From IMG/VR virus record IMGVR_UViG_3300023184_000026, positions 62,001-126,000 of that record: a stretch of 64,000 nt of DNA. One strand, given 5' to 3'. The stretch is from a virus. The position numbers and the translations under genes are program-made. The notes beneath the pieces were generated by a model. The model worked only from the letters and a program-made list of their open reading frames with translations. It was not told where the DNA came from and did no database searches. Of this stretch, positions 30,894 through 49,756 are shown one piece after another (position 1 is the stretch's first letter; each line of letters begins with the position of its first letter).

Positions 30894-31568
30894 ATGGCTA
30901 CTAATAATATAACACTAAACGGTCAGACATTTAATAAGTCTGACTCATTCAATCCAAACACAGAAAATCTACAAACAGATGGTCTTTCTGTGCTTTGTTT
31001 CAGTCAAAATGATGATTCTAAAGTAAATGACTGTATCATAGATGGTCAAGATGCACGTTGGGGAGGCAAAGCCTCATTAACATTTGGTCTTGAATATAAT
31101 AGATGCACATTCAAGAATGGCACTGCACGAGCATTTGATATGGTGCGTGGTGGTAATGTTACATTTACTGAATGTATATTTGAAAATACTGTACGCAAGC
31201 CTGTAGTATCTCAGTTTACAGTTGCTGAACAATGCGACATTGGTATAAAAGGTGGTGTACATGATGTAACATTTCATAGTTGCATATTCAATGATATTTT
31301 AATAGGTGATTATAGCATATATGATCAACAAGATCGTCCAAAAGCTCGCCGCTTTACTTTCATCAATTGTAAAAACAAAGATGGTGGACCAATCATTATT
31401 CGTGGCAAATATGTTGATAAAGATTCTATCAATCTTGTTGGTACACATGCAAAAATGTGGGTTTGGCCGTCATTTTTAACCAAATTATATTGGATGTTTA
31501 ATCGCAAGTTTGGCGACACTCGCAAACCAGATGGTTGGAATGTATATGATCATAGAGAATTGGATTAA
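30894..31568 (+). CDS. Right-handed beta-helix protein
   Basis: The ATG at 30894 (MATNNITLNGQTF) gives 224 residues; the longer ORF runs back into a tRNA. Regular strands of about 22 residues with Cys and Phe ladders (YNRCTFKNGTARAFDM, VTFTECIFENT, VTFHSCIFNDI, FTFINCKNKDG) indicate a pectate-lyase-like beta-helix. Such proteins act in phage as tail-spike depolymerases or adhesins, but no catalytic residues can be named. There is no signal peptide, so it is more likely a virion part than a secreted enzyme. Confidence 0.75.
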   Translation: MATNNITLNGQTFNKSDSFNPNTENLQTDGLSVLCFSQNDDSKVNDCIIDGQDARWGGKASLTFGLEYNRCTFKNGTARAFDMVRGGNVTFTECIFENTVRKPVVSQFTVAEQCDIGIKGGVHDVTFHSCIFNDILIGDYSIYDQQDRPKARRFTFINCKNKDGGPIIIRGKYVDKDSINLVGTHAKMWVWPSFLTKLYWMFNRKFGDTRKPDGWNVYDHRELD

Positions 31569-31678
31569 AAATACAAAAACATCGTAGTTTTTATATAAAA
31601 ATTTATCTTGCCAAATTGGTAAACGTGTATCATATTTATCGGTTCAAACGTCTAAAGACGAAAACTAAATAATAATAT
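31569..31678. other. Possible tRNA remnant
   Basis: CTTGCCAAATTGGTAAACG resembles an acceptor/D-arm region and CGGTTCAAACG a T-arm, followed by a CGTCT/AGACG hairpin,  but no acceptor 3' strand or anticodon arm fits. Confidence 0.3.
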
Positions 31679-33652
31679 ATGAAATATAATAACACACAAA
31701 ATAACTCGCTGCTTGTGAAGCTCTTTGCTTCTATGATGCTGTTTGTGGTCGCTGTGACCAGTGTATTTGCCATTCCCGGCATTACATCCACAAACCTACA
31801 AACAACTGCGGGTGTAACAGTTACAGATGCAGGTACTACTCTTAGTATCGTCGCCCCAAACAAGTCTGTGCTTACATGGCAGAACTTTGGAAGTGGCACG
31901 GATACTATTGCTATTGGAGACGCACTAAACTATACACTTCCTTCCAATAATGCATCTGTATTAAACATTGTTGCTGGTGGAGCATCCTCAACCATCAACG
32001 GTACACTTTCATCTAACGGCAATGTATATGTCCTCAATCCAAACGGCATCTTGGTCGGTGGCAGTGCTCGAATTGATGTCAATCGTTTGGGCTTGAGCAC
32101 ATCCGACAATCCATCATTTGCTAGTTTTTATTTCCAGCAAAATGGATTTCTTCCGTCTCAAGACGGGTTGGCTCCTGTCGCTGGTAATACAACCATCAAT
32201 AATGGTTCAATCATTGCAGTAAGCGAAAACATTACTCTTGTTTCCAAGAATATCACAATCAACGGTGTATTGTCTCAAGGAAATCTTGTGCTCAATGCTG
32301 ATGGTAATGTTACTGTGGGTTCTGCTGGTATGGCTTATATCGCTGGCAATTTGACTATCAACAATCCAACAGGAACAACTACAATTGGTTCTGCTGGCAA
32401 CAACACAATTATCACCAATAACCTAGTGGTCAATGGAAATTCTACAAGCGCGTTTTCTTCGGTTGCCACTGGTACAATACAAGCCAAGACGTTAAATGTA
32501 ACAGCTGGAACAATTCTGGCCGATCGTATCAGCACAAACAGCACAACTGTCAATGGCACAAATGTCACTGTTAATGTTGGTTCTGGTGCTGGCACGCCTT
32601 CTGTTACCGCAGTTGGCAATGGCACAGTACAAATATCCGCACCTGCGTCTCTTACTGTTAATGTCAGCAACTCTGGTGCTGGTGCAACCACCGTATCTGC
32701 TGGTGGTAATTTGACACTGGGTAAGGTACAAGTAGAAGGTTTGGCTGGTGCTTCATTTACTGGTGCATCTGTGACTGACACTTCGTCCAGAATATTTGTT
32801 TATGGCGGTGCTGCGTTCACTGCAACTGCTGGGAATGTTACTATCGACAAAGGACAACACAGTTTTGGTCCAGTTAGCGTATCTGCTACTGGCGAAGCCT
32901 TGATTGTTGAAGACGCAGCCACACAGTTGAACGTTGTCAACACACCAAAGTTGACATTGCGTTCTGTTGATTATATTTTTCAAACTCCAACAACTGGTGT
33001 AGTTAATAGTGCATTGGTTTCTGTTGTGGGTTCTGGAAATATAACACTTGGTGCAGTCACAAACTCCGCTGGAAATTACACAATCACCGGAAACGATGTT
33101 GTGTTTGCCAACAACGGTGCATTGTCTATATCCACGACCGCAACTGGCAACGCTTCTGTTATATCAACGGGCGCAGTGACTCTCGGCTCAATAGCCACGG
33201 GTGGCACACTAACAGTTACTTCTGCTGGAGCAATCACTCAAGCAGTTGATACCAAAGTCAGTTCGTTTGGATCTGTTCGTTTTGTTGGAACTGGATTGAC
33301 ACTATCAAATGCTGGCAACGGCTTTGGTGGCATCACAGTTGATGTTGGTACTGCCGGTACTGCCACACTCACAGAAGAAACAACTCTAAACCTCGTTTCT
33401 CTTCGCGCTGCGAATGCAACATTGAAAAGTACATTCGATGTTATTACAACTGGTGCATTGCCGGTAGTCGCTGATACATTCAATGTTGTTGTTGGTGGGG
33501 ATTTTGTTCCTGCTGCAAACTTCCGCGCCGTCAATGGTATTACAGTATTGTCTGGTGGAAATGTTGACTTGAGCAATTTGAGTTTGATCACAAACTTGAA
33601 TAACAAGAGCCCAAGCATCATTGCCAAAGGATACAAGGCTCCACAGCCATAA
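31679..33652 (+). CDS. Filamentous-haemagglutinin-type (TPS domain) exoprotein
   Basis: The 657-residue protein has a signal peptide (hydrophobic LFASMMLFVVAVTSVFA) and an N-terminal TPS-like domain: VLTWQNFGSGTDTIAIG, ASSTINGTLSSNGNVYVLNP followed by NGILVGG. The NPNGI motif and its surroundings are diagnostic of two-partner secretion exoproteins. The rest is a long beta-helix of Ala/Gly/Thr/Val repeats. Bacterial relatives are exported by a TpsB barrel and act as adhesins; no TpsB gene is visible here. Codons are GC-richer than neighbours. It could be exported by the host or act as a fibre. Confidence 0.85.
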   Translation: MKYNNTQNNSLLVKLFASMMLFVVAVTSVFAIPGITSTNLQTTAGVTVTDAGTTLSIVAPNKSVLTWQNFGSGTDTIAIGDALNYTLPSNNASVLNIVAGGASSTINGTLSSNGNVYVLNPNGILVGGSARIDVNRLGLSTSDNPSFASFYFQQNGFLPSQDGLAPVAGNTTINNGSIIAVSENITLVSKNITINGVLSQGNLVLNADGNVTVGSAGMAYIAGNLTINNPTGTTTIGSAGNNTIITNNLVVNGNSTSAFSSVATGTIQAKTLNVTAGTILADRISTNSTTVNGTNVTVNVGSGAGTPSVTAVGNGTVQISAPASLTVNVSNSGAGATTVSAGGNLTLGKVQVEGLAGASFTGASVTDTSSRIFVYGGAAFTATAGNVTIDKGQHSFGPVSVSATGEALIVEDAATQLNVVNTPKLTLRSVDYIFQTPTTGVVNSALVSVVGSGNITLGAVTNSAGNYTITGNDVVFANNGALSISTTATGNASVISTGAVTLGSIATGGTLTVTSAGAITQAVDTKVSSFGSVRFVGTGLTLSNAGNGFGGITVDVGTAGTATLTEETTLNLVSLRAANATLKSTFDVITTGALPVVADTFNVVVGGDFVPAANFRAVNGITVLSGGNVDLSNLSLITNLNNKSPSIIAKGYKAPQP

Positions 33653-33678
33653 TAGATATTATAAAGTGTATACTTCAA

Positions 33679-33708
33679 AAAACCCAACCATTTACGGTTG
33701 GGTTTTTT
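33679..33708 (+). terminator. Rho-independent terminator
   Basis: AAAACCCAACC / GGTTGGGTTTT stem followed by T-run, just after the exoprotein gene. Confidence 0.88.
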
Positions 33709-33737
33709 GTTATGTTCATATATATTTATAATAACTT

Positions 33738-33989
33738 ATGAAGAAATCTGAACTCAAAAATCTTATCAAAGAAGTAATGGATGAAATAGTTGAACTTAAT
33801 CCAGAAAAGCAAGAACAAATGACAACCACACAGTTGAATGGGTTGAATCAAAAATCTGAAAAAATGCTAGAAATAATGAAATCAAGTGATGTTAAGTTGG
33901 AACCTTGGATGATTGATCTTATCAGCCAAGCATATCATAATATTGATGCTGTTGCCAACAAACTGATGTTTGGTGATAAAAAAGATTAA
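33738..33989 (+). CDS. Small helical protein with packaging-type N-terminus
   Basis: The 83-residue product starts MKKSELKNLIKEVMDEI, a basic amphipathic helix containing I-K-E, then continues as acidic helices (EKMLEIMKSSDVKLEPWMID). Similar short proteins starting MKKSELK-x-LI-x-E are common in T4-like marine phages, from memory. It may be an internal head protein or a scaffold. No enzymatic motif. Confidence 0.6.
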   Translation: MKKSELKNLIKEVMDEIVELNPEKQEQMTTTQLNGLNQKSEKMLEIMKSSDVKLEPWMIDLISQAYHNIDAVANKLMFGDKKD

Positions 33990-34030
33990 GAAAGTTGTTG
34001 ACTTTAGATAAAATTCTGCCACTGTCTTAA

Positions 34031-34116
34031 TCAAGAAAAGGGTGTGATGAATTGATCACACGGAGGTAACGGGTAGGCTTTCCTCCGAAGGACACGAACC
34101 GCAATATGTGCCTTCC
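34031..34116 (+). ncRNA. Three-hairpin RNA ahead of the second tRNA block
   Basis: Perfect stems GTGTGAT/ATCACAC (34042-34061), CGGAGG/CCTCCG (34061-34087) and AAGG-A-CAC/GTGCCTT (34088-34114) follow each other without gaps. TTGACT at 33998 could be a -35, though no good -10 is seen. No ORF. The tRNA-Ile at 34132 follows. Confidence 0.5.
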
Positions 34117-34131
34117 TCGTTCTTTATATTT

Positions 34132-34208
34132 CCTCTTATAGCTCAATTGGTTAGAGCGGGTGCTTTATAGGCGCAGGGTTGTGGGTTCAAATCCTACTAG
34201 GAGGACCA
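34132..34208 (+). tRNA. tRNA-Ile(UAU)
   Basis: Acceptor CCTCTTA/TAGGAGG, loop TTTATAG, T-arm GTGGG TTCAAAT CCTAC, CCA encoded. Confidence 0.85.
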
Positions 34209-34296
34209 ATTTTAGCAAAGAGTAACTAGTATAATATTCAACTTGATTCCAACCCAAGCCAAAATATTGTGTGAACTAGTTTACTCGGCTATTTAT

Positions 34297-34372
34297 GGTA
34301 GTGAGGTCGATTGGTTAAGGCAGCGGTTTCATAAGCCGTTCTATGTGGGTTCAATTCCCACCACTACTTCCA
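34297..34372 (+). tRNA. tRNA-Met(CAU)
   Basis: Acceptor GGTAGTG/CACTACT, loop TTCATAA, T-arm GTGGG TTCAATT CCCAC, CCA encoded. The 88 bases before it contain GAGTAA-CTAGT / ACTAG-TTTACTC, an 11-bp imperfect stem. Confidence 0.85.
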
Positions 34373-34380
34373 TTTTTAAT

Positions 34381-34456
34381 GCCGCCGAAGTTTATATGGG
34401 TGAACAATTCATTATTAATGAATAAGAAGTTGGTCCGATTCCAACCGGTGGCTCCA
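34381..34456 (+). tRNA. tRNA-like gene with apparent AUU anticodon
   Basis: Acceptor GCCGCCG/CGGTGGC, stem ATTCA/TGAAT with loop TTATTAA, T-arm GTTGG TCCGATT CCAAC, CCA encoded. Read strictly, positions 34-36 are AUU (Asn), which is very rare in bacteria and phages; it may be a decayed gene. Confidence 0.55.
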
Positions 34457-34467
34457 TTTATTGTATA

Positions 34468-34498
34468 TTGACAAATATGTATTATTGAGTAATATAAT
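34468..34498 (+). promoter_or_regulatory. Promoter-like sequence
   Basis: TTGACA (34468-34473), 19-base spacer, TATAAT (34493-34498), 14 bases before the ATG at 34512. Confidence 0.55.
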
Positions 34499-34511
34499 AA
34501 CAATATTAAAA

Positions 34512-34676
34512 ATGAGTGAACTAGGTCTATTAAGAATTCTTCCAAAAGAACAATTTACAGAATATAAAGGAAAATGTATACAGGTTCGTGACTTAATAAA
34601 GATACTTGAAAAACAAAATAAAAAAAATACTAATAATGGGCCTGCCCGGCGCAGGAAAAACAACACTGGCAACTGA
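34512..34676 (+). CDS. Short ORF overlapping the APS-kinase-like gene
   Basis: The ORF starts MSELGLLRILPKEQFTEYKG and is open for 54 codons, but its last 18 residues are a frame-shadow of the kinase P-loop. The first 36 residues look like a natural N-terminus for the kinase. The two frames meet in a run of eight A bases at about 34619-34626. It is either a separate small gene or the 5' part of the kinase, joined by +1 frameshifting or separated by an assembly indel. Confidence 0.45.
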   Translation: MSELGLLRILPKEQFTEYKGKCIQVRDLIKILEKQNKKNTNNGPARRRKNNTGN

Positions 34677-35043
34677 ATTAGCCAAGATGTTGAATGCAGT
34701 TCATTTTAACGCTGACGAAATTCGTAAAGAAATCAATAAAGATTTGACGTTTAGTATACAAGATAGAATAGAACAAGCACGTCGTATGAAAGTGTTATGT
34801 GATATAGTTGTTAGGTCTGGAAATTATGCTATAGCAGATTTTGTATGTCCAACAAAACAGGCACAAGATGTATTTATAACAGAAGATACATATGTTGTTT
34901 GGGTTGACAGAACAAAGGTTGGTAGATATGAAGACACCAACAAACTGTTTTATCCTCCAGAGAATTTTGATATGATAGTCAATGAATATGGATCTCCAAA
35001 ATTTTGGTCGCTATTGATTGTTGACGAACTGCAAGCACACTAA
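34606..35043 (+). CDS. APS-kinase-like P-loop kinase
   Basis: The open frame begins at TTG 34606; Walker A GLPGAGKTTLA follows within 12 residues. FNADEIRKEINKDL, QARRMKVLCDIVVRSG and YAIADFVCP match adenylylsulfate kinases and their phage relatives, which phosphorylate a hydroxyl group of a nucleotide or sugar. Protein length from TTG is 145 residues against about 170-200 for APS kinases, so the N-terminus may come from the overlapping frame at 34512. The true substrate is uncertain. Confidence 0.7.
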   Translation: MKNKIKKILIMGLPGAGKTTLATELAKMLNAVHFNADEIRKEINKDLTFSIQDRIEQARRMKVLCDIVVRSGNYAIADFVCPTKQAQDVFITEDTYVVWVDRTKVGRYEDTNKLFYPPENFDMIVNEYGSPKFWSLLIVDELQAH

Positions 35044-35096
35044 TTGATATATTATATCTTTTGGTCATATATATTATATATATTTCTATATAATAT

Positions 35097-35753
35097 ATGG
35101 CAAAAAAGAGCAAAGTTAAACCAACTGATATAATAAATAGTCCTTTGTTTGCTGGAGTGCCGCCAAAATTTGTAAAAAAAGCGGCTACTTTTTGTGAAGT
35201 AAAAGAGTATAGTGCTGGTTCATTTATAATAAATGAAGGTGAAAAAGGAGACTTTATGTTTATTATACTTGATGGTCAAGTGGATGTATTAAAAGGACCA
35301 AAGAAGATGAAATTAGCCACACTTGGCAAAGGTGTATTTTTGGGAGAAGGTGCATTGGTTAGTAGATCACCAAGAAATGCAAGTATTGTCGCAAAGAGTA
35401 GTGTTAAACTTGCTGTATTTGATCAAAATGGATTTGATAAATTATCTGTTATGCATCCATGTATTCCTGTAACAATGATGAATATACACAACGAAAGATG
35501 CAAAGATACAGTGCGTAAACTCAATATATTAAAATCAAAAGAATTTATATTGATGGCAGCAGTTGGATTGGTGTTGCTTGTAAAAAATTCACATAGTATA
35601 CTTCCAATGAATTTACATGATATTGCAGATCAAATTGCAAGCTATATTCCAGATCAAGTTATGGCATTGGGTGGCCCAGCAGCAGCAGCAATTGGATTGA
35701 AATTAAAACAAATGGAAATGGGTGATATAGTTTCTAAATTAGACAAGATTTGA
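35097..35753 (+). CDS. Cyclic-nucleotide-binding domain protein with a membrane helix
   Basis: The 218-residue protein has a cNMP-binding fold at residues 15-130: FAGVPPKFVKKAA, EYSAGSFIINEGEKGDFMFI, LDGQVDVL and the phosphate-binding cassette FLGEGALVSRSPRNASIV, with Glu and Arg that contact the cyclic phosphate and ribose. A hydrophobic helix (FILMAAVGLVLLV) follows and then a Pro/Ala-rich C-terminus. No DNA-binding or kinase domain is present. It could read the product of the CHASE2 cyclase encoded at 19430, which is inference. Confidence 0.8.
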   Translation: MAKKSKVKPTDIINSPLFAGVPPKFVKKAATFCEVKEYSAGSFIINEGEKGDFMFIILDGQVDVLKGPKKMKLATLGKGVFLGEGALVSRSPRNASIVAKSSVKLAVFDQNGFDKLSVMHPCIPVTMMNIHNERCKDTVRKLNILKSKEFILMAAVGLVLLVKNSHSILPMNLHDIADQIASYIPDQVMALGGPAAAAIGLKLKQMEMGDIVSKLDKI

Positions 35754-35763
35754 TAGTTTGTAG

Positions 35764-35791
35764 TTGACCAGAACAATATAATGTGTATAGT
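35764..35791 (+). promoter_or_regulatory. Promoter for a tRNA block
   Basis: TTGACC (35764-35769), 16-base spacer containing CAATATAAT, TATAGT (35786-35791), 20 bases before tRNA-Leu(UAG). Confidence 0.6.
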
Positions 35792-35810
35792 TATGTTTGT
35801 TCTTTGATAC

Positions 35811-35901
35811 GGCTGTGTGGCGGAATTGGCTATACGCACTTCGCTTAGAACGAAGCACCTATAAAAAAGGTATATGGGTTCGACTCCCTTCGCAGCCACC
35901 A
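35811..35901 (+). tRNA. tRNA-Leu(UAG)
   Basis: Acceptor GGCTGTG/CGCAGCC, stem CTTCG/CGAAG with loop CTTAGAA, long variable arm, CCA encoded. Confidence 0.92.
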
Positions 35902-36142
35902 ATTTAAATACTTTTTTCTGGTAGTAAATTCTTTGAGGTTCGTCGCCTCATTTACTGGCTGATATACAATGACAAAATCGTGGTTATTATTGATTGAAAT
36001 GAAACGACTTCCGACACGCGGGTCTGATATAATAGTTAGATTAGAGTCCTTGAGGTAATAACTTGATTGTATATCGAAGGAGAGCATAACTGCGGTGCCA
36101 TAACTTGGGATGACCAACCCAACGCGCAGTCAGAAAAAAAAT
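35902..36142. other. Non-coding or weakly coding stretch
   Basis: A long hairpin AGTAAAT...TGAGG-TTCGTCG-CCTCA...TTTACT lies at about 35923-35956. ACTGCG/CGCAGT (36089-36131) encloses a TTGGG/CCCAA hairpin. A minus-strand ORF (36117-35845) runs into the antisense of tRNA-Leu and was not accepted; its first 60 residues are nevertheless protein-like. Confidence 0.35.
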
Positions 36143-36218
36143 AAGTGCTGACATTGGGGATGACTCACCTGCTGATGAACCAATGGCGCGGAGACGCAGG
36201 TCACTACCGCCAGCACTT
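36143..36218 (+). ncRNA. tRNA-sized pseudoknot-capable RNA
   Basis: AAGTGCTG pairs with CAGCACTT (8 bp, perfect). Inside, CATTGG (36152) with CCAATG (36180) and ACCTGC (36167) with GCAGGT (36196) are interleaved. CTGATGA occurs at 36172 but the rest of a hammerhead core is missing. No anticodon or CCA. Confidence 0.5.
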
Positions 36219-36226
36219 CACTTTAT

Positions 36227-36312
36227 GGCAGCGTAGAAGAATTGGCATATTCAGGGGTCTCAAACACCCCCGCCGCAAGGCACTGTGGGTTCAAGTCCCT
36301 CCGCTGCTACCA
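36227..36312 (+). tRNA. tRNA-Leu(CAA)
   Basis: Acceptor GGCAGCG/CGCTGCT, stem GGGGT/ACCCC with loop CTCAAAC, long variable arm, CCA encoded. Confidence 0.88.
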
Positions 36313-36316
36313 ATTT

Positions 36317-36502
36317 ATGGATATTATGGATACTCAAACTATTACAACAAACTATGATGCTGGAAAAATTGCAAAGCGAGAAGCAATGCGTAAAGAATTA
36401 AAGCGCATGAAGATGCAACATATGCTTGAACTAAATCAAACTATCAGTGAAAACGCTGATGTTGTTGCAAAAAGATGGATTGCTGAGTTGAAACAAAAAT
36501 AA
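36317..36502 (+). CDS. Small helical hypothetical protein
   Basis: The ATG at 36317 follows tRNA-Leu by four bases and gives 61 residues. The middle is a very basic helix (AKREAMRKELKRMKMQHML). It sits between two tRNA genes. No family recognised. Confidence 0.55.
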   Translation: MDIMDTQTITTNYDAGKIAKREAMRKELKRMKMQHMLELNQTISENADVVAKRWIAELKQK

Positions 36503-36508
36503 TTTTAT

Positions 36509-36596
36509 GGCCGTATGATGGAACTGGATATACATTTTGGACTTAAAATCCAACGCCCGTAAGGGATTGAGGGTTCAAATCCCTCTGCGGCTACCA
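36509..36596 (+). tRNA. tRNA-Leu(UAA)
   Basis: Acceptor GGCCGTA/TGCGGCT, stem TTGGA/TCCAA with loop CTTAAAA, long variable arm, CCA encoded. Confidence 0.92.
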
Positions 36597-36605
36597 ATTT
36601 ATAAT

Positions 36606-36770
36606 ATGAAAACATTATGGAGAATATGGGCAAAAGCCCTTGGAGAAAAAGCAAGTGAAAATGACTGCGAAGCAGATCGTGTTGCATTTATTCGCACACT
36701 TATTGTGCTTTGTTATGTTGTAACAAACATATTCATTGTTGCGGGAGTAATAAAGCATTGGCATGACTAA
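36606..36770 (+). CDS. Conserved small membrane protein of T4-like phages
   Basis: The 54-residue product MKTLWRIWAKALGEK... has a polar N-terminal half and one membrane helix (TLIVLCYVVTNIFIVAGVI). I recognise it, from memory, as a recurrent unannotated protein of T4-like cyanophages, which supports the phage origin. It overlaps the next gene by eight bases. Confidence 0.7.
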   Translation: MKTLWRIWAKALGEKASENDCEADRVAFIRTLIVLCYVVTNIFIVAGVIKHWHD

Positions 36771-37215
36771 AGAGCTTTATATTGAAAGCGGCAATCATTG
36801 GATAAATGCTCCATATCCATTGAAACCAAATGATACTGAAGTAAAAATGTATCAACAACATCTATTGACTGGAACTACATTGCTACTTGGTTCTACAGTT
36901 CCTTTATTACCTTTGTGTGATGAAGCAATTGACTTGACTCCAAGAATACAAGATCCAAAAATAATCAAGGGAGATTGGAATAACATAGAAAAATTTTATG
37001 ATAATATTATTGGAGACGGAGTTCTAAATTTAGAAGGAGAAAAGATAATTGAAAATCTTCGTCCCAAGTGCCATAGATTCATAAGCAGAGTATTTTCCAG
37101 AAAATTCTCGTATATGAAATACGCTACATTTTTTTATAAAGATTTTCATAACGCAATCAAAGTGGCAGAAATAAATGAATCATGTCCGATTTTCATCTGG
37201 AAGTTTACAAGTTAG
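36763..37215 (+). CDS. Methyltransferase-like protein
   Basis: The 150-residue protein has TTLLLGSTVPLLPLC near residue 38, a glycine-containing strand-loop like SAM-binding motif I, then AIDLTPRI and NNIIGDGVLNLEG, which resemble motifs II and IV of class I methyltransferases. It is short (usual size 200 or more) and the C-terminus changes to a Lys-rich helix. It overlaps the CapK-like gene by 34 bases, so the two probably act together. Confidence 0.55.
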   Translation: MTKELYIESGNHWINAPYPLKPNDTEVKMYQQHLLTGTTLLLGSTVPLLPLCDEAIDLTPRIQDPKIIKGDWNNIEKFYDNIIGDGVLNLEGEKIIENLRPKCHRFISRVFSRKFSYMKYATFFYKDFHNAIKVAEINESCPIFIWKFTS

Positions 37216-38201
37216 TAACTGCATTGGAAGAAAACCAATACAAAGAGCGTGATGTATCGTTATTGATACCAAAACTTAATATATTGACAAGAGAAGAGTT
37301 GCAGAAAATACCTATAGACCAATCCAAACCATTTTCATCCACCAGTGGAGCAACCGGTCAACCAGTATTTGTTCAAAAGTATATGGCACAGCATATATGG
37401 TATTGGGCAACCAATATGCGTGAACTAATTTGGAGAAAATGGGATACATCATTAAATTTGGCTGTAATCAATGCGACTGTAACAGAAGAAAAGATTACAC
37501 CTTGGCCGACAAATCCATATCTATTTACAAAAGGAGTTGGAAAGTGTTATATGCATCCAACGCGCGGAGACTTGCAAGGTTGGCTATATAGAATACAGCC
37601 AGATTATTTGCATACATATCCATCTATTATAGCCACACTTGATACATCTAAACTAAAAGATGTAAAATCAACAAGTGAAAGAGGCGGAACCAATTATAGT
37701 TCAGAAGAAGTTGGTACAATTGGATTAGAATGCCCAGACAATCCGGATGTATATCATATCATGGAGAACATTGTTATAGAAATCGTAGATGACAATGATA
37801 TCCTCGTCACAGACCTCACACATCCATATATAAAGAGATACAAAATTGGAGATAAAGGAGAGTTTGCTACTTGCAGTTGTGGAAGAAAATTACAAACCAT
37901 AAATCGTAATGTTATTGGTAGAATTCGTAATATGATAAAGTATCAAGATGGCACAACTGCGTGGCCATTGTTTGGCAGCAATACCATAAGAAATGCATGT
38001 GATACAATAAAAAGATTTCAATGTGTGCAAGAGTCATACACAGACATCACACTGAAGATTCAAGGAAATGTACCAGAAGATAAAATTGAAGATATAAAGA
38101 AATTGGTATTGAAAAGACTCAATCATCCATTCAATTTAAAAATAGAATTTGTAGAATCTTTTCCAGAAGGAAAATTTGAAGAGTTTGTTTGTAAGATATA
38201 A
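37182..38201 (+). CDS. CapK/PaaK-like adenylate-forming ligase
   Basis: The 339-residue protein has FSSTSGATGQPVFV (about residues 47-60), the P-loop of phenylacetate-CoA-ligase-type AMP-forming enzymes. Further on, GTIGLECP, YHIMENIVIEI, ILVTDLTHPYIKRYKIGDKG and IGRIRNMIKYQDG follow the order of PaaK/CapK motifs. Such enzymes activate a carboxylate as an acyl-AMP and transfer it to CoA or another acceptor. It is shorter than PaaK (about 430). With the methyltransferase-like neighbour it may modify a surface or small molecule. Confidence 0.8.
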   Translation: MSDFHLEVYKLVTALEENQYKERDVSLLIPKLNILTREELQKIPIDQSKPFSSTSGATGQPVFVQKYMAQHIWYWATNMRELIWRKWDTSLNLAVINATVTEEKITPWPTNPYLFTKGVGKCYMHPTRGDLQGWLYRIQPDYLHTYPSIIATLDTSKLKDVKSTSERGGTNYSSEEVGTIGLECPDNPDVYHIMENIVIEIVDDNDILVTDLTHPYIKRYKIGDKGEFATCSCGRKLQTINRNVIGRIRNMIKYQDGTTAWPLFGSNTIRNACDTIKRFQCVQESYTDITLKIQGNVPEDKIEDIKKLVLKRLNHPFNLKIEFVESFPEGKFEEFVCKI

Positions 38202-38203
38202 AT

Positions 38204-38280
38204 GCATCTGTCGGCAATTGGATAGTCAACGTGGTTTCTACCCACATTTAGTGTCAGTTCAAATCTGACCAGATGCACCA
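38204..38280 (+). tRNA. tRNA-Arg(UCU)
   Basis: Acceptor GCATCTG/CAGATGC, loop TTTCTAC, T-arm GTCAG TTCAAAT CTGAC, CCA encoded. Last tRNA gene found in the window. Confidence 0.85.
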
Positions 38281-39805: not shown

Positions 39806-39836
39806 AAAACCCACCGAAAGGTGGGTTTTGTTTTTT
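39806..39836. terminator. Bidirectional terminator
   Basis: AAAACCCACC-GAAA-GGTGGGTTTT with T-run, between convergent genes. Same stem and loop as at 13286. Confidence 0.88.
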
Positions 39837-40548
39837 ACATTAGATACGGCAGATATGCTCTGCGAAGAACATCATTTGCATATTTATGATCAAATTCATA
39901 TTTGAATTTACGATCTTCATATGCTTTCTTCAATTCTATTTCATAATTGTCGGCAAGAAAGTTTAGCTGTTCCGCTGTGTATGTTTCTGGTTGAGTTTTT
40001 ACCATCATAAGAAAAGCATGAACATTTGTGTCATATTGCTTTATATTGACAGGAAAATAACCTTTTTCAAACAATGCTTTGCCGCAGCTGGCTAGTCTAA
40101 AAAGCTGTGTGAAGTTCTTTGGACTAAAACCATACTTATCAAGGTGAGCCTTGCGTTTGCTGCCAAGTTGACCTGTGCGTTCACCGTTGGCAAGACGCCG
40201 TTCACCCTGCATATAACCAAGCAGGCATCTAAACATCTTGTCTGTGTCAACAAACTTTAACTTGTTTGTTTGTATTTCTTCAAATATATCACTTGTTTCA
40301 AGCAAGTTGTCGGAGAAAAGTATTTCAAGTGCACCTGTATTACCATTACGAAGAAGCTCAAAAAACTTACGAACTTCATAATAAACTATGTCATCTGTTT
40401 CTTGCTTTTGTATATGATCCATACGCTCCAAACCAAGTATTTTGGATGGATCTGTATTTATGAACACACCTCTATAATCAAGATCAGACTCAGGAGTGTT
40501 GAGTCCATATGCTGTGCTGCCTCCCAAAGCTTTTACTAGCATTTTCAT
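39835..40548 (-). CDS. RlaP-like nucleotidyltransferase
   Basis: The 237-residue protein begins LVKALGGSTAYGLNTPESDL followed by DYRGVF: the GS...D-x-D site of the DNA polymerase beta superfamily. This form (GSxAxGxxxxxSDxDxRGV) is that of the RlaP family of phage and bacterial RNA-repair nucleotidyltransferases. It would add a nucleotide to an RNA end or another molecule. TTGACA-N16-TAAATA on the minus strand (40583 back to 40556) could drive it. Confidence 0.8.
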   Translation of the reverse strand: MKMLVKALGGSTAYGLNTPESDLDYRGVFINTDPSKILGLERMDHIQKQETDDIVYYEVRKFFELLRNGNTGALEILFSDNLLETSDIFEEIQTNKLKFVDTDKMFRCLLGYMQGERRLANGERTGQLGSKRKAHLDKYGFSPKNFTQLFRLASCGKALFEKGYFPVNIKQYDTNVHAFLMMVKTQPETYTAEQLNFLADNYEIELKKAYEDRKFKYEFDHKYANDVLRRAYLPYLM

Positions 40549-40624
40549 AATTATATATTTAACAAAAAGTAGTGTTTTGTCAATATTATTCTATATTTAT
40601 AAATGAACTTATTATATAAAAATT

Positions 40625-41334: not shown

Positions 41335-41363
41335 AAAAAACCCCGCAAATCGCGGGGTTTTTT
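41335..41363 (+). terminator. Rho-independent terminator
   Basis: CCCCGC / GCGGGG stem flanked by A- and T-runs. Confidence 0.88.
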
Positions 41364-41406
41364 ATTATAAATATAGTTATAAATTGAACCAAAGATTATA
41401 TACATT

Positions 41407-42897
41407 ATGAAACAATCAAGAAGAAGCTTTCTAGGCTTAGGAGCAATGGGATTACTTGGATTGAATATGCAAGGGGCTGAAAAAAAGCCTCTTGAATTTT
41501 GCAATCCAAATGACGTGCCACAATTTGTGTTTGGCAATGAACCAATGAGAACTCGCAAGAGTTTTTATGATCTAACCGATGAAGAACTACAGACATTATG
41601 CAAGGCTGTAGATTATATGCGTAACAAGCTTCCACGTGAAGCGCCAACAAGTTGGGAGACATATACTCGCATACACTACAAACACTGCACTGCGTTTGAT
41701 GCTGACCATCCACAAGTTCATTGGGGTGATCATTTTCTTCCTTGGCACCGTGGTTATTTATTTTTCCTCGAACGCTTGTTGGGAAATTCTTTGAATCAAC
41801 TGGGTCTTGATGGTAACAAGTTTGCTTTTCCATATTGGGATTGGATCAACCACAAAGAAATGCCAAATACAAAATTCCGTGAGTTGAAGGGGCTAGGGAG
41901 TCCATTGTTTGGTTATGACCTAATACAACAAAATATGGTGGCTGGCGACAATCTTGGTTTTGATAATCTTGCGTTATACGATGGAAACCGTGGTCCTACA
42001 CTTGAAAAGAGTAAAATAGACCCCGCCAACGAAACGCAGCAAGATTCTAAAGATCACGTCGCCGAATGCCTTGGTTATATGAGCAAAGAGTATGTTGACT
42101 TGATGCTGACTACTCCTTGGGAGCAATTTGGAGGAAAGCCCGGTATTGATCGTAAGACTGGTCAAGGATTGGTTGAAGCCGGTGCCCACAATGACGGTCA
42201 CGACTGGGTTGGAACAAGATATGGATGCAACAGAACAATGGGTACGCTGCGCTATGCCGCAGACGATCCTATTTTCTTTATGCACCACTGCAACTTGGAT
42301 AGAATATTCTCGTTGTATAAGAATCCAATCCCAGATATCAATGGACCATGGGGCCAACAAAGATATGTGTTCCCTGATTTGAATGGTTCGCCCGTAAGCG
42401 TATCGGTCAAAGATATTATGCTATGGACTCAAACGGTATCATATCAAGCACCGCAAACAAGCAAAGCGAAGCTAGGTGCATCTAAAGCATTAAAGAATGC
42501 TGCGTCTGTTACGATTCCTGTAAACAAATCGACGGTATCTAAAGCAGGGTTGAGTGTTTCAATTGAGCCTTCTGTAAGCCTGAAAAACTTGATCAATAAA
42601 GGTCTTGAGTCTGGTACATCAATTCTTGAAATTGAAACCGGACCAATATCTCATGCTGGCCGCGCCACGATCAAAGTTTATATTGGTAAAAAATATATAG
42701 GAAGAATCAAGATAATGGACGGAGATCCAAGCACAACAAATCCAGACGCTTCGCATACATTTGTGATGACACTTGGACAATTGGGTAAGATTTCCGAGGC
42801 AATTCCAGTTGCGTATAAATTCGATGTGAATTTTTATGCGTATGGCATAAGCCAAGATGTGCTAATAAGAAACTTAAAGTTCAGTGTAATGAAATAA
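41407..42897 (+). CDS. Tyrosinase (type 3 copper) with Tat signal peptide
   Basis: The 496-residue protein starts MKQSRRSFLGLGAMGLLGLN, a twin-arginine signal. The CuA site is given by H90-Y-K-H and H105-WGDHF-LPWH114-R; the CuB site by AGAHNDGHDW and DPIFFMHHCNLDRIF, matching the two PROSITE-type tyrosinase patterns. All six expected His are present, so it should bind two coppers and oxidise phenols to quinones. The C-terminal 130 residues form a beta-rich domain. Tat export would deliver folded, copper-loaded enzyme to the periplasm. Confidence 0.92.
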   Translation: MKQSRRSFLGLGAMGLLGLNMQGAEKKPLEFCNPNDVPQFVFGNEPMRTRKSFYDLTDEELQTLCKAVDYMRNKLPREAPTSWETYTRIHYKHCTAFDADHPQVHWGDHFLPWHRGYLFFLERLLGNSLNQLGLDGNKFAFPYWDWINHKEMPNTKFRELKGLGSPLFGYDLIQQNMVAGDNLGFDNLALYDGNRGPTLEKSKIDPANETQQDSKDHVAECLGYMSKEYVDLMLTTPWEQFGGKPGIDRKTGQGLVEAGAHNDGHDWVGTRYGCNRTMGTLRYAADDPIFFMHHCNLDRIFSLYKNPIPDINGPWGQQRYVFPDLNGSPVSVSVKDIMLWTQTVSYQAPQTSKAKLGASKALKNAASVTIPVNKSTVSKAGLSVSIEPSVSLKNLINKGLESGTSILEIETGPISHAGRATIKVYIGKKYIGRIKIMDGDPSTTNPDASHTFVMTLGQLGKISEAIPVAYKFDVNFYAYGISQDVLIRNLKFSVMK

Positions 42898-42904
42898 AAC
42901 AAAA

Positions 42905-42930
42905 AACCCCGCGAATAGCGGGGTTTCTTT
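42905..42930. terminator. Terminator between convergent genes
   Basis: CCCCGC-GAATA-GCGGGG with A-run and T-run. Confidence 0.85.
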
Positions 42931-43431
42931 TTAGTTGGCATCGAGGCGATATACTATTACATCGTTTGGATAGTCATCAAACGCCACTTCAATAAGCCGA
43001 GAAACAATGTCCCAATTTCCACCTCCGCGAAAACTACCCATTTTATAAGGAAATCCAACAGATGGAACGGGCAGGTCCATATCATTTTCTGTCAAATCAT
43101 CCGCCATACCCTCAAGTGCAGAATACAAAGCATCATAATTGGTTTGTCTTGTACCTTTACCATAAAGATTTTGACCATACAAGTTATAGATACGAGAAAT
43201 AGAACTTATATCGTTATTGACCGGAATATAACCTACGGAAAATCTACCCAAAGTGTTTACATTCGCCCTCGCGGCACTGCAATCTGCTTCGTATGCAACT
43301 GGATACATTTCACGAATAGCGCGAGCAATGCCACTGCCAAAAGTATTTTGACAATTGGCTTGATGGGCACAACACCCTATTTCACGCGATGTTAGTAAAT
43401 TACCCTCTCTATAAATTAGATTTTTCATCAC
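42931..43431 (-). CDS. Macro-domain (ADP-ribose-binding) protein
   Basis: The 166-residue protein has GNLLTS near the start and CCAHQANCQNTFGSGIARAI (about residues 20-39), the Asn-containing loop and glycine-rich loop that hold ADP-ribose in macro domains. A second loop, PSVGFPYKMGSFRGG, fits the distal site. Members remove ADP-ribose or 1''-phosphate from ADP-ribose, or reverse ADP-ribosylation of DNA and protein. In a phage this may counter a host ADP-ribosylating or NAD-based defence, or finish RNA repair. Confidence 0.88.
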   Translation of the reverse strand: MMKNLIYREGNLLTSREIGCCAHQANCQNTFGSGIARAIREMYPVAYEADCSAARANVNTLGRFSVGYIPVNNDISSISRIYNLYGQNLYGKGTRQTNYDALYSALEGMADDLTENDMDLPVPSVGFPYKMGSFRGGGNWDIVSRLIEVAFDDYPNDVIVYRLDAN

Positions 43432-43504
43432 AATATTCTTGCTAAAAAAATAAAAAAGTCAAGACTTATTTTATATCACTTTTGTTAGATTTTATAATAT
43501 TTAT

Positions 43505-43957
43505 ATGTATATGACAATGATACCCGGCCCAAACAATGAAATGATAACAGCATCAATTGCACCTGCTTATGGCAGCACTGCAAACTATTATCAAGGTACA
43601 CAAGGTAAAAAAACAATAGCTACCGGAGGCACATTTCCAAAGACTGTTGTAAGTGGTAGCATTACCACATACGGCAATCCTGTATTGATTATGTGCTCTG
43701 GTGATGCAAATCCATCCGCCGGTGGCACTTATGGTGTTATTCAATTATATAGAGGATCAACAGCATTATGCCAAACGATTCAATATGAAAGCTCTGATGC
43801 AAATGAGAATGTTCCATATAACATCAGTTGCATAGATCCTGTTTCAGCGGGTACATATACATATTATATGAAAGTAAATGAAATGGCTGGCGGAAACACC
43901 GATTTCGGAGAATCTTCTAGCCCAAACTTTATCTTGACTGAACTAAGTCGAGTATAA
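43505..43957 (+). CDS. Beta-rich protein, possible virion decoration or fibre
   Basis: The 150-residue protein is rich in Gly, Ser, Thr and Tyr. Strand-turn patterns (GNPVLIMCSGDANPSAGGTY, GVIQLYRGSTALCQTIQYE, AGTYTYYMKVNEM) look like a jelly-roll or Ig-like module of the kind found at the ends of phage fibre proteins. No signal peptide. A second in-frame ATG is at 43511. It ends at a strong terminator. Confidence 0.55.
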   Translation: MYMTMIPGPNNEMITASIAPAYGSTANYYQGTQGKKTIATGGTFPKTVVSGSITTYGNPVLIMCSGDANPSAGGTYGVIQLYRGSTALCQTIQYESSDANENVPYNISCIDPVSAGTYTYYMKVNEMAGGNTDFGESSSPNFILTELSRV

Positions 43958-43990: not shown

Positions 43991-44638
43991 TTACATATCT
44001 GGACTATGATGGTCTGGCGATTTTGTTTTGCGAGGATTTAGTTCGCGCACAATCTCATTCCATTCCACTGGACGTTTCATCCATTCCCAACCTACATCTA
44101 TTCTATAAAGACTAGTATCTTCTTTTAGATTACGGTGACAATGACCGTGGATATGATAGGCGTCTTTAGATAAATGATTCCAAGATGCGATGGGATAATG
44201 ATCCAAGATAACAGCCCTGCCATCAATAAAGATTTCAGCTCTGTGACCAAGGAATGTAAATGGACTGTTTGGATAATTCAATGGATATATTTCTATATCA
44301 TCAGCAAGCAAACCAACTTCGCCGCGACATTCATCATACATTTGTTGAATACCTGCGTTATGATTACCCCAAATAAAATATTGATGCTTGCAAGGTAGAT
44401 ATACAATTCGTTTAGCATATTCCAATGAGTTTGGTCCGGCACCAATAACAACATCGCCAAGATTGAACACAATATCATTTGGTCCAATCATCTTGAGCAT
44501 TTCATGAGTATGAGAGTATGCTTCATTGACATTTTGATAATTTCGTGGACCAAGAATAAATGGTTTGTCGTGACCCAGATGCAAGTCACTCACAAACCAA
44601 ATCTTTTGGTCAATTGATTTTAGACTAATTTTCTTCAT
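43991..44638 (-). CDS. Calcineurin-like metallophosphoesterase
   Basis: The 215-residue protein has the five metal motifs in order: IWFVSDLHLGH, VFNLGDVV, YFIWGNHN, LDHYPIAS and HIHGHCH. These bind two metal ions and hydrolyse phosphomonoesters or diesters. It overlaps the cyclic-phosphate receiver gene by ATGA, so the two are made together. A plausible job is removal of cyclic or 3' phosphates from RNA ends, which is inference from context. Confidence 0.9.
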   Translation of the reverse strand: MKKISLKSIDQKIWFVSDLHLGHDKPFILGPRNYQNVNEAYSHTHEMLKMIGPNDIVFNLGDVVIGAGPNSLEYAKRIVYLPCKHQYFIWGNHNAGIQQMYDECRGEVGLLADDIEIYPLNYPNSPFTFLGHRAEIFIDGRAVILDHYPIASWNHLSKDAYHIHGHCHRNLKEDTSLYRIDVGWEWMKRPVEWNEIVRELNPRKTKSPDHHSPDM

Positions 44639-44997
44639 TTTCTGCTTTTCTTGTATGATTCAATATAACTACGAATGTTCTCTCTGCCAATAGGATTCAT
44701 ACTGTGAACTTGATAATCAGGAAATTCCAGATTATTGTTCATACAATATTCAACAATCCATTTGCAGCAATCATAGCCAGTTTTTTCTTTGTATTTATCA
44801 TAATTTGGAACACCAACAATATAATGTTCAAGTCCCAAATCGTGATCAAATGAAACAAACGATGGCAAACCATTTTGCATGATATATTTTACAAAATCAT
44901 CATAATTTCTCGCTATAATCCAAGGACCAAGCGGCATTTTTACCCAACTAACATTTTTTGGCAGACGTTCATCGTCAAGAAATAATTTATACATCAT
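44635..44997 (-). CDS. Cyclic-phosphate-processing receiver-domain protein
   Basis: The 120-residue protein starts YKLFLDDERLP, with the acidic pair of a receiver domain, then has FVSFDHDLG, GYDCCKWIVEYC and YQVHSMNPIGRENI. This set is typical of the cyclic-phosphate processing receiver (cPP-receiver) family, proposed from comparative genomics to handle 2',3'-cyclic phosphates in RNA repair. The metallophosphatase follows by ATGA overlap. TTGACA-N16-TATCAT on the minus strand (45028 back to 45001) lies three bases before the start. Confidence 0.75.
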   Translation of the reverse strand: MMYKLFLDDERLPKNVSWVKMPLGPWIIARNYDDFVKYIMQNGLPSFVSFDHDLGLEHYIVGVPNYDKYKEKTGYDCCKWIVEYCMNNNLEFPDYQVHSMNPIGRENIRSYIESYKKSRK

Positions 44998-45794: not shown

Positions 45795-46185
45795 GGGCGT
45801 GTTATGGATTCTACTTTATAATGTAGGTTTAAGCCGCAAGCACAGAGTCTAATGTCTCTGTATAATACCCGTTGGAAAACATAAATGCTAAGAGAAATCT
45901 TGCAAAGGTGTCTTTTCTTTCTGTTCGCAAGAACAGCGGAGCCGAGACACTTGTCGCAGCCTAATAAAATAGGCTGTCCGTTGTCCTTGTGACACAGATA
46001 ACAAGTCAACAACGTTCATCATCTGGCCGTTTGTGCAAGATAGAAGATGGTAGCACAAATCAAATACTAAACTTCAACTTCAATGTGGTGCTCTACCAAA
46101 CATTGATGTATTATAAGAGATAAGCTTGTATATGTTTAGATGTATGTTATATAGCACGCGGATTCGACTTCCGCCACGTCCACCA
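45795..46185 (+). ncRNA. ssrA: tmRNA (transfer-messenger RNA)
   Basis: The 5' end GGGCGTGTTATGGATTC has the usual tmRNA start and pairs with 3' CACGTCC, followed by A and CCA. The T-arm is GCGGA TTCGACT TCCGC. The tag frame ends ETLVAA with TAATAA at 45962, inside a GCAGCCTAATAAAATAGGCTG hairpin, as in other tmRNAs; the resume codon is probably GCT at 45887 (25-residue tag) or GCA at 45902 (20). It is one-piece, 391 bases. It would free stalled ribosomes and tag their products. Confidence 0.92.
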
Positions 46186-46294: not shown

Positions 46295-47008
46295 ATGACA
46301 AAGAAAATACTATTAATGATTACGGCAGCATGTGCCGCACTCACACTAACTGCATCGCCTGTGACCGTCACAGCAGACGCAACATACTACACCAAGTTTT
46401 TGGACCGTGGTGTTGTTGCATATAATGACGTTGCAGTCGTTGGTGCAAATGTTGAGGTTGCAGGTTTTGTATTGGGTGCAAGCACCTTCAATACTATTCA
46501 AGCAAATGCTGTGGGAAAGAACGTAGTAAGTTCTGGACTACTAAAGCGAATTGATACAACCGTTGGTTATAAGTTTACTGCTCCGCTGGCAAACTTGACC
46601 TTGGGTTCTGTCTATTCCTCTTATAGCAAGAGCATTTCCAACATTGCCAGCACAAACGAACCATTCGTTAAGCTGGATGGCAAGTTATGGAAGAATAGTG
46701 TGTGGGATATCACAGGTCGTTCTGATCTGAAGCTACACACCAATAATGTAGAAACAAATGTTAAACTTCCTTTTGGTTTTCAACACCTAAAGATCGTTCC
46801 TTCCGTTGGATACGGATTCAATGATCCCGGTGCCGCCACAATTGCCGCATTGAAGAATGCAAAGCAATATGCATTGGTTGGAGTTGGTATTGGATATTAC
46901 ACAAAATATGCCACATTGAATGTTGGTATATATCAATCCCGTGACACGCTATTTACTGCTGGAAATACCAGCAGCGGCGTTTCTGGTGGATTGGCCGTAA
47001 AGTTCTAA
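46295..47008 (+). CDS. Outer-membrane beta-barrel protein
   Basis: The 237-residue protein has a signal peptide (KKILLMITAACAALTLTASP). The mature part alternates hydrophobic and polar residues over many strands (VTVTADATYYTKF, TTVGYKFTAPLANLTLGSVY, ATLNVGIYQSRDTLF) and ends with GGLAVKF, a C-terminal Phe as needed for outer-membrane barrel assembly. It could block receptors against other phages or change permeability. It has its own promoter and terminator. Confidence 0.82.
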   Translation: MTKKILLMITAACAALTLTASPVTVTADATYYTKFLDRGVVAYNDVAVVGANVEVAGFVLGASTFNTIQANAVGKNVVSSGLLKRIDTTVGYKFTAPLANLTLGSVYSSYSKSISNIASTNEPFVKLDGKLWKNSVWDITGRSDLKLHTNNVETNVKLPFGFQHLKIVPSVGYGFNDPGAATIAALKNAKQYALVGVGIGYYTKYATLNVGIYQSRDTLFTAGNTSSGVSGGLAVKF

Positions 47009-47025: not shown

Positions 47026-47059
47026 CAAAAAAGGACACCGTAAATGGTGTCCTTTTTTT
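47026..47059 (+). terminator. Strong rho-independent terminator
   Basis: AAAAAGGACACC / GGTGTCCTTTTTTT stem. Confidence 0.92.
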
Positions 47060-47068
47060 ATTGTATTG

Positions 47069-47096
47069 TTGACAAACATCAACATATGTGTAATAT
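47069..47096 (+). promoter_or_regulatory. Promoter, leaderless
   Basis: TTGACA (47069-47074), 16-base spacer, TAATAT (47091-47096); the favoured ATG at 47104 is seven bases after the -10. Confidence 0.6.
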
Positions 47097-47103
47097 CACT
47101 ATT

Positions 47104-48057
47104 ATGATTCTATCACATAATATAGTTCCTTCACTTTGTTGCATTCACAATGGTCTAAAAGACCAAGGTGTTAAATTCAACACCATGACTTATGCTCAAT
47201 ACAAGAAGTTGGGCAAGGACACAGCAATGAAGGTTCTAGCAGACCGCTCGTTCAATAATATCAAGACCATTCACTCTATTATAAAAGAGTGTGCCAAAAA
47301 CAAATGGAATTATAGAATTGGCAGCAATGTGTTTCCATTGATGACACATCCCGATTTGAAATTTGGCATAGATGATTTTTATAATTTCTCAGATATTATA
47401 TCAGAGTTTAGCGCATGTGCTACTACTATTAAACAAAACAAAGTGCGTTGCAGTATGCACCCAGACCAGTTTGTGGTTCCTGCAAGTCCAAAAAATGGTG
47501 TTGCTGAAAACTCTATTCGCGACCTTGAACAACATGCTATGATTATGGATTTACTTCAACTACCACAATCATATGAAGCACCAATCAATATTCATATGAA
47601 TTGTTATAATGACGGCAATTTTAGTGAAGTTATTGATAGATTGGAAAAAGTTATCAAACGCATGTCAAAATCTGTAACAAGTAGGCTTGTTTTCGAGAAC
47701 GAAGATAAACTAAAAAGTTGGACTGTATATAATCTACACGAACATCTTTATAAACGCACAGGTATTCCAATCACATACGACAATCTTCATAACAAATGTA
47801 ATCCATCCACACTTCTCGATGAACAACAAACATTTGATTTATCTGTATCCACTTGGCCGAATGGTATTATTCCATTGTTTCATTTCAGCGAATCACTTGC
47901 TGGTAAAAATCCACGTGCTCATGCCGACTTTCCTACATTTGTACCTATGGTATATTCTACATATAAAAAAGATTTGCATCTTGATTTTGAGTTCAAGCAT
48001 AAAGAATCTGCTATAAATAAGATTTCTCGCCAAAACTTATTGACATTTGATAAATAA
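47104..48057 (+). CDS. uvsE: UV-damage endonuclease (UvdE/UvsE)
   Basis: I chose the ATG at 47104 because the promoter ends at 47096; upstream ATGs would lie inside it. The 317-residue protein has VRCSMHPDQFVVPAS, INIHMNCYND, RLVFENEDKLKSWT, ITYDNLHNKCN and LFHFSES, matching the metal-binding His, Glu and Asp positions of the UvdE TIM barrel. It nicks DNA 5' to UV photoproducts to begin excision repair, useful for a phage exposed to sunlight. Confidence 0.9.
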   Translation: MILSHNIVPSLCCIHNGLKDQGVKFNTMTYAQYKKLGKDTAMKVLADRSFNNIKTIHSIIKECAKNKWNYRIGSNVFPLMTHPDLKFGIDDFYNFSDIISEFSACATTIKQNKVRCSMHPDQFVVPASPKNGVAENSIRDLEQHAMIMDLLQLPQSYEAPINIHMNCYNDGNFSEVIDRLEKVIKRMSKSVTSRLVFENEDKLKSWTVYNLHEHLYKRTGIPITYDNLHNKCNPSTLLDEQQTFDLSVSTWPNGIIPLFHFSESLAGKNPRAHADFPTFVPMVYSTYKKDLHLDFEFKHKESAINKISRQNLLTFDK

Positions 48058-48640: not shown

Positions 48641-49756
48641 GTGAAAATTGACTTACAATCCATAAACCCCGAATCATTCATGGTTCATCAGCACTTTGTT
48701 GGTGGGCATGAATGTTTTTTGGTTCAGCCCAAAAATATTGGTGCAACTTGGAATAAAGAGAACTTGATTTATCGCTCTTCATTGTGGGATAAAGAAGGAA
48801 ATCCCGTTTCACTTTCGTTCAAAAAGTTCTTCAATTATGATGAAAAGCCCGACATCTTTCCTGCACCTTCTGATCTAAAAAATGCAAAGTTGATGGAAAA
48901 GTTGGACGGTTCTACTTTAATCTTTTCTCGCTACAAGGGTCACACTGTTATTCGCACACGCGGAACTGTTGATGCTCATAAGCAAGCAAATGGACATGAG
49001 ATAGACTATTTGTGTGAAAAGTACAAGAAGTTCATTGCATATCTTGAAATGCTAGAAACTAGCAATGAGTCTTTTGTACTGGAATGGTTGAGTCCAACCA
49101 ATCGCATTGTATTGAACTATGGCGACGAACCTGACATGGTTTTGACTGCTGTAATCAATCACAATGATTATTCCTTGATGTGCCAATCTCAATTGGACTA
49201 TTTTGCATCTGATATTGGGCTGCGCCGTCCCCGCACTTTCTCCTACAACTCCGTTGAAGAAATGAAGTCGGCAGTTGAAGTGTTGAAAGACCAAGAAGGC
49301 TTGTGTGTGTATTATAACAACGAACAACAAATTCGTAAAGTAAAAGCTGCATCATATCTTTTTTTACATCGTGCAAAAAGTGAAATTTCTAGCATAGAAA
49401 AAGTCATTGATGTATATATTGATTGGTTTATGGATCGGCACAATCTTTCTCATGAACCAACTGGTTATGTAGAATTCTTTGAATATCTAACCGAGAAGTT
49501 TGACTTTGAAATTGCTACAATGGCAACTGGACACGCTTCGCGTATCTGTGATGCTATGAAAGAAGTTCACAAGATTATGAATGCATTGTTTGAGTTTGCA
49601 TCTGCTCGTATGAACATTGCTCGTAATATTGCCGCCAAAGAAATCTTACAAGCATACGGCAGCACGGGCAGAAGTGCAATTATATTCAAGATGCTAGATC
49701 GCAAGACCATCGGCACTGATGATTATAAAAAATTGCTATATCAAGTATTGAAGTAA
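48641..49756 (+). CDS. rnlA: T4 Rnl1-like RNA ligase
   Basis: The 371-residue protein (T4 RnlA is 374) has motif I KLMEKLDGSTLIFSRY with the AMP-accepting Lys, RTRGT after it, motif III ESFVLEWLSPTNRIVL, motif IV EGLCVYY and motif V KVKAASYL. The helical C-terminal third corresponds to the tRNA-anticodon-recognising domain of Rnl1. It reseals tRNAs cut by host anticodon nucleases. It begins with GTG directly at the predicted transcript start. Confidence 0.93.
   Translation: MKIDLQSINPESFMVHQHFVGGHECFLVQPKNIGATWNKENLIYRSSLWDKEGNPVSLSFKKFFNYDEKPDIFPAPSDLKNAKLMEKLDGSTLIFSRYKGHTVIRTRGTVDAHKQANGHEIDYLCEKYKKFIAYLEMLETSNESFVLEWLSPTNRIVLNYGDEPDMVLTAVINHNDYSLMCQSQLDYFASDIGLRRPRTFSYNSVEEMKSAVEVLKDQEGLCVYYNNEQQIRKVKAASYLFLHRAKSEISSIEKVIDVYIDWFMDRHNLSHEPTGYVEFFEYLTEKFDFEIATMATGHASRICDAMKEVHKIMNALFEFASARMNIARNIAAKEILQAYGSTGRSAIIFKMLDRKTIGTDDYKKLLYQVLK

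Follow-up and report, generated by a model that had tools for sequence, protein, structure and literature searches.

The window, a 64,000-nucleotide stretch covering positions 62,001 to 126,000 of the IMG/VR virus record IMGVR_UViG_3300023184_000026, carries on its plus strand a gene for a tyrosinase/polyphenol oxidase of 496 residues (41407..42897), recognized by its open reading frame, its Pfam domain and its fold match. Copper enzymes of this sort are responsible for the browning of apples and for melanin formation. The frame runs for 496 codons from a start codon with zero internal stops, compared with a longest stop-free run of 163 codons in 200 shuffles of the surrounding 9 kb, and the Pfam domain Tyrosinase (PF00264) covers residues 81-305 (E=1.8e-33; 117.1 bits against a cut-off of 22.6). 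The original prediction, made from the letters of the window, had placed a tyrosinase at exactly this position; its coordinates and motifs are correct, and the domain match and the six copper-binding histidines agree with it. We consider it highly probable that the gene is an intact tyrosinase of a phage lineage.

Expression signals around the gene

Upstream of the gene, on the same strand, direct reading reveals a G+C-rich hairpin (CCCCGC-AAATC-GCGGGG; 41341..41357) flanked by runs of A and T, which would serve as the terminator of the preceding gene. The hairpin is missing from the consensus terminator scan, and two relatives (L002 and L004) have a hairpin at the matching place with compensating changes (cccctcg/cgagggg). 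Between this hairpin and the gene lies the conserved motif TATAAATA (41366..41373, plus strand), a candidate T4-type late promoter 41 bases 5' of the start codon, identical to the late promoter sequence of T4; it is conserved upstream of the tyrosinase in the same two relatives, and the window contains 16 copies where 6.7 would be expected. Two further copies lie on the minus strand, one at 40594-40601, 53 bases before the minus-strand gene at 40548, and one at 43498-43505, 74 bases before the minus-strand gene at 43431, a placement that would be fitting for a late promoter. On the 3' side, the terminator scan places an intrinsic terminator at 42904..42926 (plus strand). With these signals on either side, the tyrosinase is probably a single late transcription unit.

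Copper sites and predicted substrates

All of the copper-binding histidines that had been predicted are present. The CuA site (41674..41748, plus strand) contains the invariant residues H90, H105 and H114 together with C94, a candidate thioether partner, and the CuB site (42175..42288, plus strand), read from the alignment, contains E257, H261-N262, H265-D266 and H294. The six ligands H90/H105/H114 and H261/H265/H294 are invariant in all viral and bacterial relatives covering the sites, and C94 likewise does not vary, either among the viral rows or among the bacterial rows used for comparison. By the residue roles described for this enzyme class (PMC8049008, PMC10526336), E257 is the waterkeeper, N262 the first activity controller and D266 the second. 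All viral rows covering the sites have the Glu waterkeeper, Asn at HisB1+1 and Asp at HisB2+1, whereas HisB2+1 is Asn in every bacterial row of the set. Asn is frequent at HisB1+1 in tyrosinases, and a catechol oxidase can gain monophenolase activity through Asp at HisB2+1 (PMC8049008). From E257, N262 and D266, monophenol (tyrosine) hydroxylation by the phage enzyme is predicted.

An alternative interpretation is that the protein is a type-3 copper protein other than a tyrosinase, either a diphenolase-only catechol oxidase or a hemocyanin-like oxygen carrier or scavenger, since the fold is common to catechol oxidases and hemocyanins, but we consider this rather improbable given the Asn at HisB1+1, the Glu waterkeeper and the Asp at HisB2+1, the last being the very residue that can turn a catechol oxidase towards monophenols.

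Leader, fold and latency

The protein begins with a twin-arginine (Tat) leader, MKQSRRSFLGLGAMGLLGLNMQGA, spanning approximately residues 1-24 to a candidate cleavage end (41407..41478, plus strand). Its N-terminus, MKQSRRSFLG, contains the canonical twin-arginine motif, as had been predicted from the letters RRSFLG, with a hydrophobic stretch after SRRSFLG, and the RR motif stands at the start of all viral homologues whose N-terminus is complete.

Two structure models were built. The first, from 13 viral sequences alone, was poor (pLDDT 48.7) and supports no claim; the second, from an alignment to which bacterial relatives were added, was of mid confidence (pLDDT 77.2, pTM 0.83). The C-terminal extension noted in the original prediction forms a beta-sandwich in this second model (residues ~363-496; 42493..42894, plus strand), with pLDDT values of 65-90 per 10-residue block. 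The top fold matches were latent two-domain polyphenol oxidases from apple, tomato, Coreopsis and Ralstonia (overall Z 24-26.5), and the alignments to all of these included the C-terminal domain, on which the beta-sandwich superposes; apple tyrosinase aligned over 384 residues (Z 26.5, model residues 36-496) and the Ralstonia enzyme over model residues 44-496 (Z 25.1), while the Streptomyces and Bacillus enzymes scored lower (Z about 18). Because the match extends over both domains, the beta-sandwich would correspond to the domain that shields the latent enzymes, and as modelled it is a candidate inhibitory shield of the kind found in vsTyr-type latent enzymes. At the level of profiles, the leader and catalytic part aligned with bacterial homologues and the C-terminal domain lay outside the alignment; the plant C-terminal families PPO1_DWL and PPO1_KFDV of Pfam gave zero matches up to E=10, and a viral structure library returned no full-length match and at most weak matches to the beta-sandwich.

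The closest architectural parallel described is vsTyr of Verrucomicrobium spinosum, which combines a Tat leader, a plant-like core and an inhibitory C-terminal extension and needs no caddie protein (PMC10526336). The phage protein resembles vsTyr (PDB 8BBQ) in its Tat leader, plant-like core, putatively inhibitory C-terminal extension, probable independence of a caddie protein, Glu waterkeeper and Asn first controller, and the vsTyr core matches the phage model with Z 21.9 and 24% identity over the aligned core; vsTyr differs in having Asn at both controllers, compared with Asn and Asp in the phage clade, and in being a cellular rather than a viral protein. Latent plant enzymes (apple MdPPO1, 6ELS; tomato, 6HQJ; Coreopsis aurone synthase, 4Z11) have the same two-domain fold (model residues 27-496, Z 25-26.5, about 21-23% identity), but they are targeted to plastids, whereas the phage protein bears a bacterial Tat leader. 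The Ralstonia tyrosinase (7XIO) and a set of rhizobial and rhodobacterial tyrosinase family proteins (L031-L046) also have the core plus C-terminal domain, with Tat-like RR leaders in several; they share 19-24% identity with the phage protein when the whole alignment is counted, fall on a separate branch and have Asn at HisB2+1. The MelC2-type tyrosinases of Streptomyces and Bacillus share the catalytic core and copper ligands with the phage protein but, unlike it, have no C-terminal domain. Membership in MelC2 itself was rejected, the score against the equivalog NF047834 (caddie-dependent Streptomyces tyrosinase) being 42.4 bits, far under the cut-off of 450. We regard Tat export and latency of the phage enzyme, claimed jointly from leader and model, as very likely; taken whole, enzyme and export mechanism together, the assignment to a Tat-exported, latent type-3 copper polyphenol oxidase is likely.

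Phage setting and integrity of the assembly

The source record comprises 297,258 bases and includes a terminase large subunit, and the window encodes a T4-type DNA polymerase and RNA ligase. Thirty tRNA genes over 14 kb and a tmRNA gene lie on the plus strand (23822-38280 and 45795-46185); the tmRNA tag has 25 residues and one tRNA-Asn was read with the anticodon ATT. The DNA polymerase shares no more than 42.5% identity with those of reference phages, a Microcystis phage being nearest, and megablast of window positions 40000-64000 found zero DNA-level relatives among reference phages, which marks the source, as far as its sequence tells, as a large, poorly known member of the T4 superfamily.

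The original prediction had named a bacterial insertion artefact as what would undo it, and the reference phages, which have no tyrosinases, together with a local G+C of ~0.41-0.44 above the window mean of 0.37, could be read as signs of a bacterial gene in a chimeric assembly or of a recent, functionless chance pick-up. We consider this extremely improbable because the gene turns up repeatedly in the same phage surroundings and its divergent relatives are under purifying selection. Three more contigs have the gene at 98% protein identity in surroundings of 93-96% DNA identity, and in six others (L005, L014, L016-L019) it occurs at 63-68% identity with its neighbours unchanged; dN/dS is about 0.10 against both one near and one distant relative; and the gene also occurs in several other phage lineages, the viral sequences forming a single clade far removed from the bacterial set. 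An insertion artefact is thus ruled out by recurrence in other assemblies, the relatives at 63-68% identity and the low dN/dS. The gene has the genomic features of a phage auxiliary gene, being part of a viral genome, with viral genes on either side, and maintained by selection.

Within the home lineage, the neighbour throughout is a macro-domain-like gene (42931..43431, minus strand; Pfam Macro E=0.0021, below the cut-off), which adjoins the tyrosinase in the same six contigs at 63-68% identity, a conserved synteny. The tyrosinase follows an RNase_T exonuclease gene in the window and precedes it in L016-L019 (5001-7623); since it lies on the opposite side of RNase_T there, it moves inside the locus.

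Other genes of the window were recorded alongside. An RNA-repair-like set surrounds the tyrosinase and comprises an RlaP nucleotidyltransferase, the macro-like domain, a cyclic-phosphate receiver domain and two RNA ligases (39835-40548, 42931-43431 and 44635-44997 on the minus strand; 15020-16042 and 48641-49756 on the plus strand). On the plus strand, 31679-33652 encodes a haemagglutinin-like exported protein of 657 residues, which has DUF5649 repeats and whose two-partner-secretion (TPS) domain matches at E=3.7e-14, and 35097-35753 encodes a cyclic-nucleotide-binding domain (E=1.2e-16), which is unusual for a phage. A small protein resembling an outer-membrane beta-barrel, which begins with a signal peptide (MTKKILLMITAACAALTLTAS...) and ends in F, is encoded at 46295-47008 (plus strand); it is 58% identical in L005 and had zero matches in reference phages and in Pfam.

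A separate viral clade in unrelated phages

The original prediction had held that tyrosinases are not standard phage genes and had proposed a search for homologues in phage contigs. On the first point, a translated search of 50,697 reference phage records with phage and bacterial tyrosinase queries gave zero matches, PHROGs contained no tyrosinase match, and a literature search found no earlier report of a phage tyrosinase. On the second, about 20 IMG/VR contigs with a tyrosinase were found, and searches with a single protein, with an alignment mixed with bacterial rows and with a viral profile converged on them; a DNA pattern for the CuB site matched 18 of 2.9 million viral contigs, all already in the set, and a bacterial-profile scan returned three contigs, again all within the set.

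Full-length viral sequences share 43-98% identity with the window protein, against 19-29% for the bacterial tyrosinases in the comparison. In a tree, 15 viral sequences were split by one branch with support of 100/100 from 11 bacterial sequences, the latter a small set drawn from few phyla. A donor search with the viral profile in 741 Planctomycetota and Pseudomonadota genomes found nothing at E<=1e-15; the scan of bacterial-genome contigs, which looked for exact matches to 8-residue pieces of the phage protein, may miss relatives at intermediate distance.

The viral clade spans at least six unrelated phage contexts. Neighbours of the tyrosinase include a tape measure protein and a DNA-polymerase-like protein (L061), a ribonucleotide reductase in two contigs (L060 and L030), with a terminase in the same record, a nicotinamide phosphoribosyltransferase (L059), a phage exonuclease (L063), PhoH in three contigs (L055, L057 and L058) and a clamp loader (L056), and no gene besides the tyrosinase was common to the differing contexts. 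By sequence comparison, this is a known kind of enzyme in a new place, phages, and on a new, separate viral branch.

Proposed function and alternatives

We propose that, late in infection, transcription of the gene would be driven by its own promoter, as TATAAATA and the flanking terminators suggest. The product would fold in the host cytoplasm, where it may load two copper ions without a caddie protein, and would be exported in folded form by the host Tat system, a step we infer because of the RR leader and the vsTyr-like architecture. By homology of fold, the beta-sandwich would keep the active site covered, and its removal or displacement would free the active enzyme, whose catalytic residues are observed, to hydroxylate monophenols and convert diphenols to o-quinones. 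The quinones, in the least certain step, may then yield a melanin-like polymer or protein cross-links in the envelope, and the infected cell and the progeny could thereby be protected from light, oxidants or further adsorption. Envelope quinone or melanin formation as the selected function is the reading we favour, tentatively. The original prediction had offered cross-linking of surface proteins or curli-like fibres, melanin as a UV screen, or the consumption of oxygen or phenols as possible roles; it is confirmed for the enzyme, the leader, the extension and the phage setting, while these roles keep the standing of proposals. The broader proposition, that an exported latent phenol oxidase coats or cross-links the infected-cell envelope with quinone or melanin products as a shield for the cell and its progeny and is traded between unrelated phages as a new class of phage gene, the shield being directed as a whole at UV (together with UvdE), oxidants or competing phages, is a serious possibility that stops short of being probable.

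The UV component draws on a UV-damage endonuclease gene, UvdE (47044..48057, plus strand; Pfam E=7.7e-40), which the home lineage carries within a few kb of the tyrosinase and which recurs in an unrelated Lake Tanganyika phage that also has a tyrosinase. Of 17 tyrosinase records, 9 contain UvdE, and one of these is a phage with a different context; the co-occurrence partly reflects one lineage, and the records are fragments. Of the 50,697 reference phages, only 101 have a match to this UvdE. We caution that this co-occurrence is weak circumstantial support for a role in UV protection.

Another interpretation is that the gene serves detoxification or metabolism, the exported enzyme clearing the surroundings of the infected cell of inhibitory phenolics from algae, humic matter or plants, which would let the host grow on until it is lysed; melanin would be a by-product. 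The one habitat identified, that of the single sample number out of six searched that was found in papers, is freshwater (Lake Tanganyika), the enzyme class accepts many phenols, and unrelated phages exchange the family without fixed partners, as they do generic metabolic genes; however, no phenol-degradation genes were seen beside the tyrosinase, quinones are themselves toxic, and D266, the sole invariant substrate-guiding residue, is specific for no substrate. We consider this reading, taken as a whole, somewhat unlikely. The enzyme might instead exclude superinfection or harden the envelope, hydroxylating and cross-linking tyrosines of surface proteins so as to block receptors or delay lysis. 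Such a role would suit the predicted export to the envelope, would need no companion genes and would sit well with the outer-membrane-like barrel protein encoded close by (46295-47008), but a late promoter implies late timing for exclusion, and we regard it as unlikely.

Returning to the favoured formation of quinones or melanin in the envelope, a tyrosinase is a surprising gene for phage biology, and its presence suggests that the infected cell may be reprogrammed by pigment or quinone chemistry in its envelope. Since a separate viral clade occurs in several unrelated phage lineages, a repeated advantage from an exported, oxygen-dependent copper enzyme is implied. The viral clade also offers tyrosinases whose active-site pair, Asn and Asp, is unusual, and it may connect phage infection with the turnover of phenolic carbon in water.
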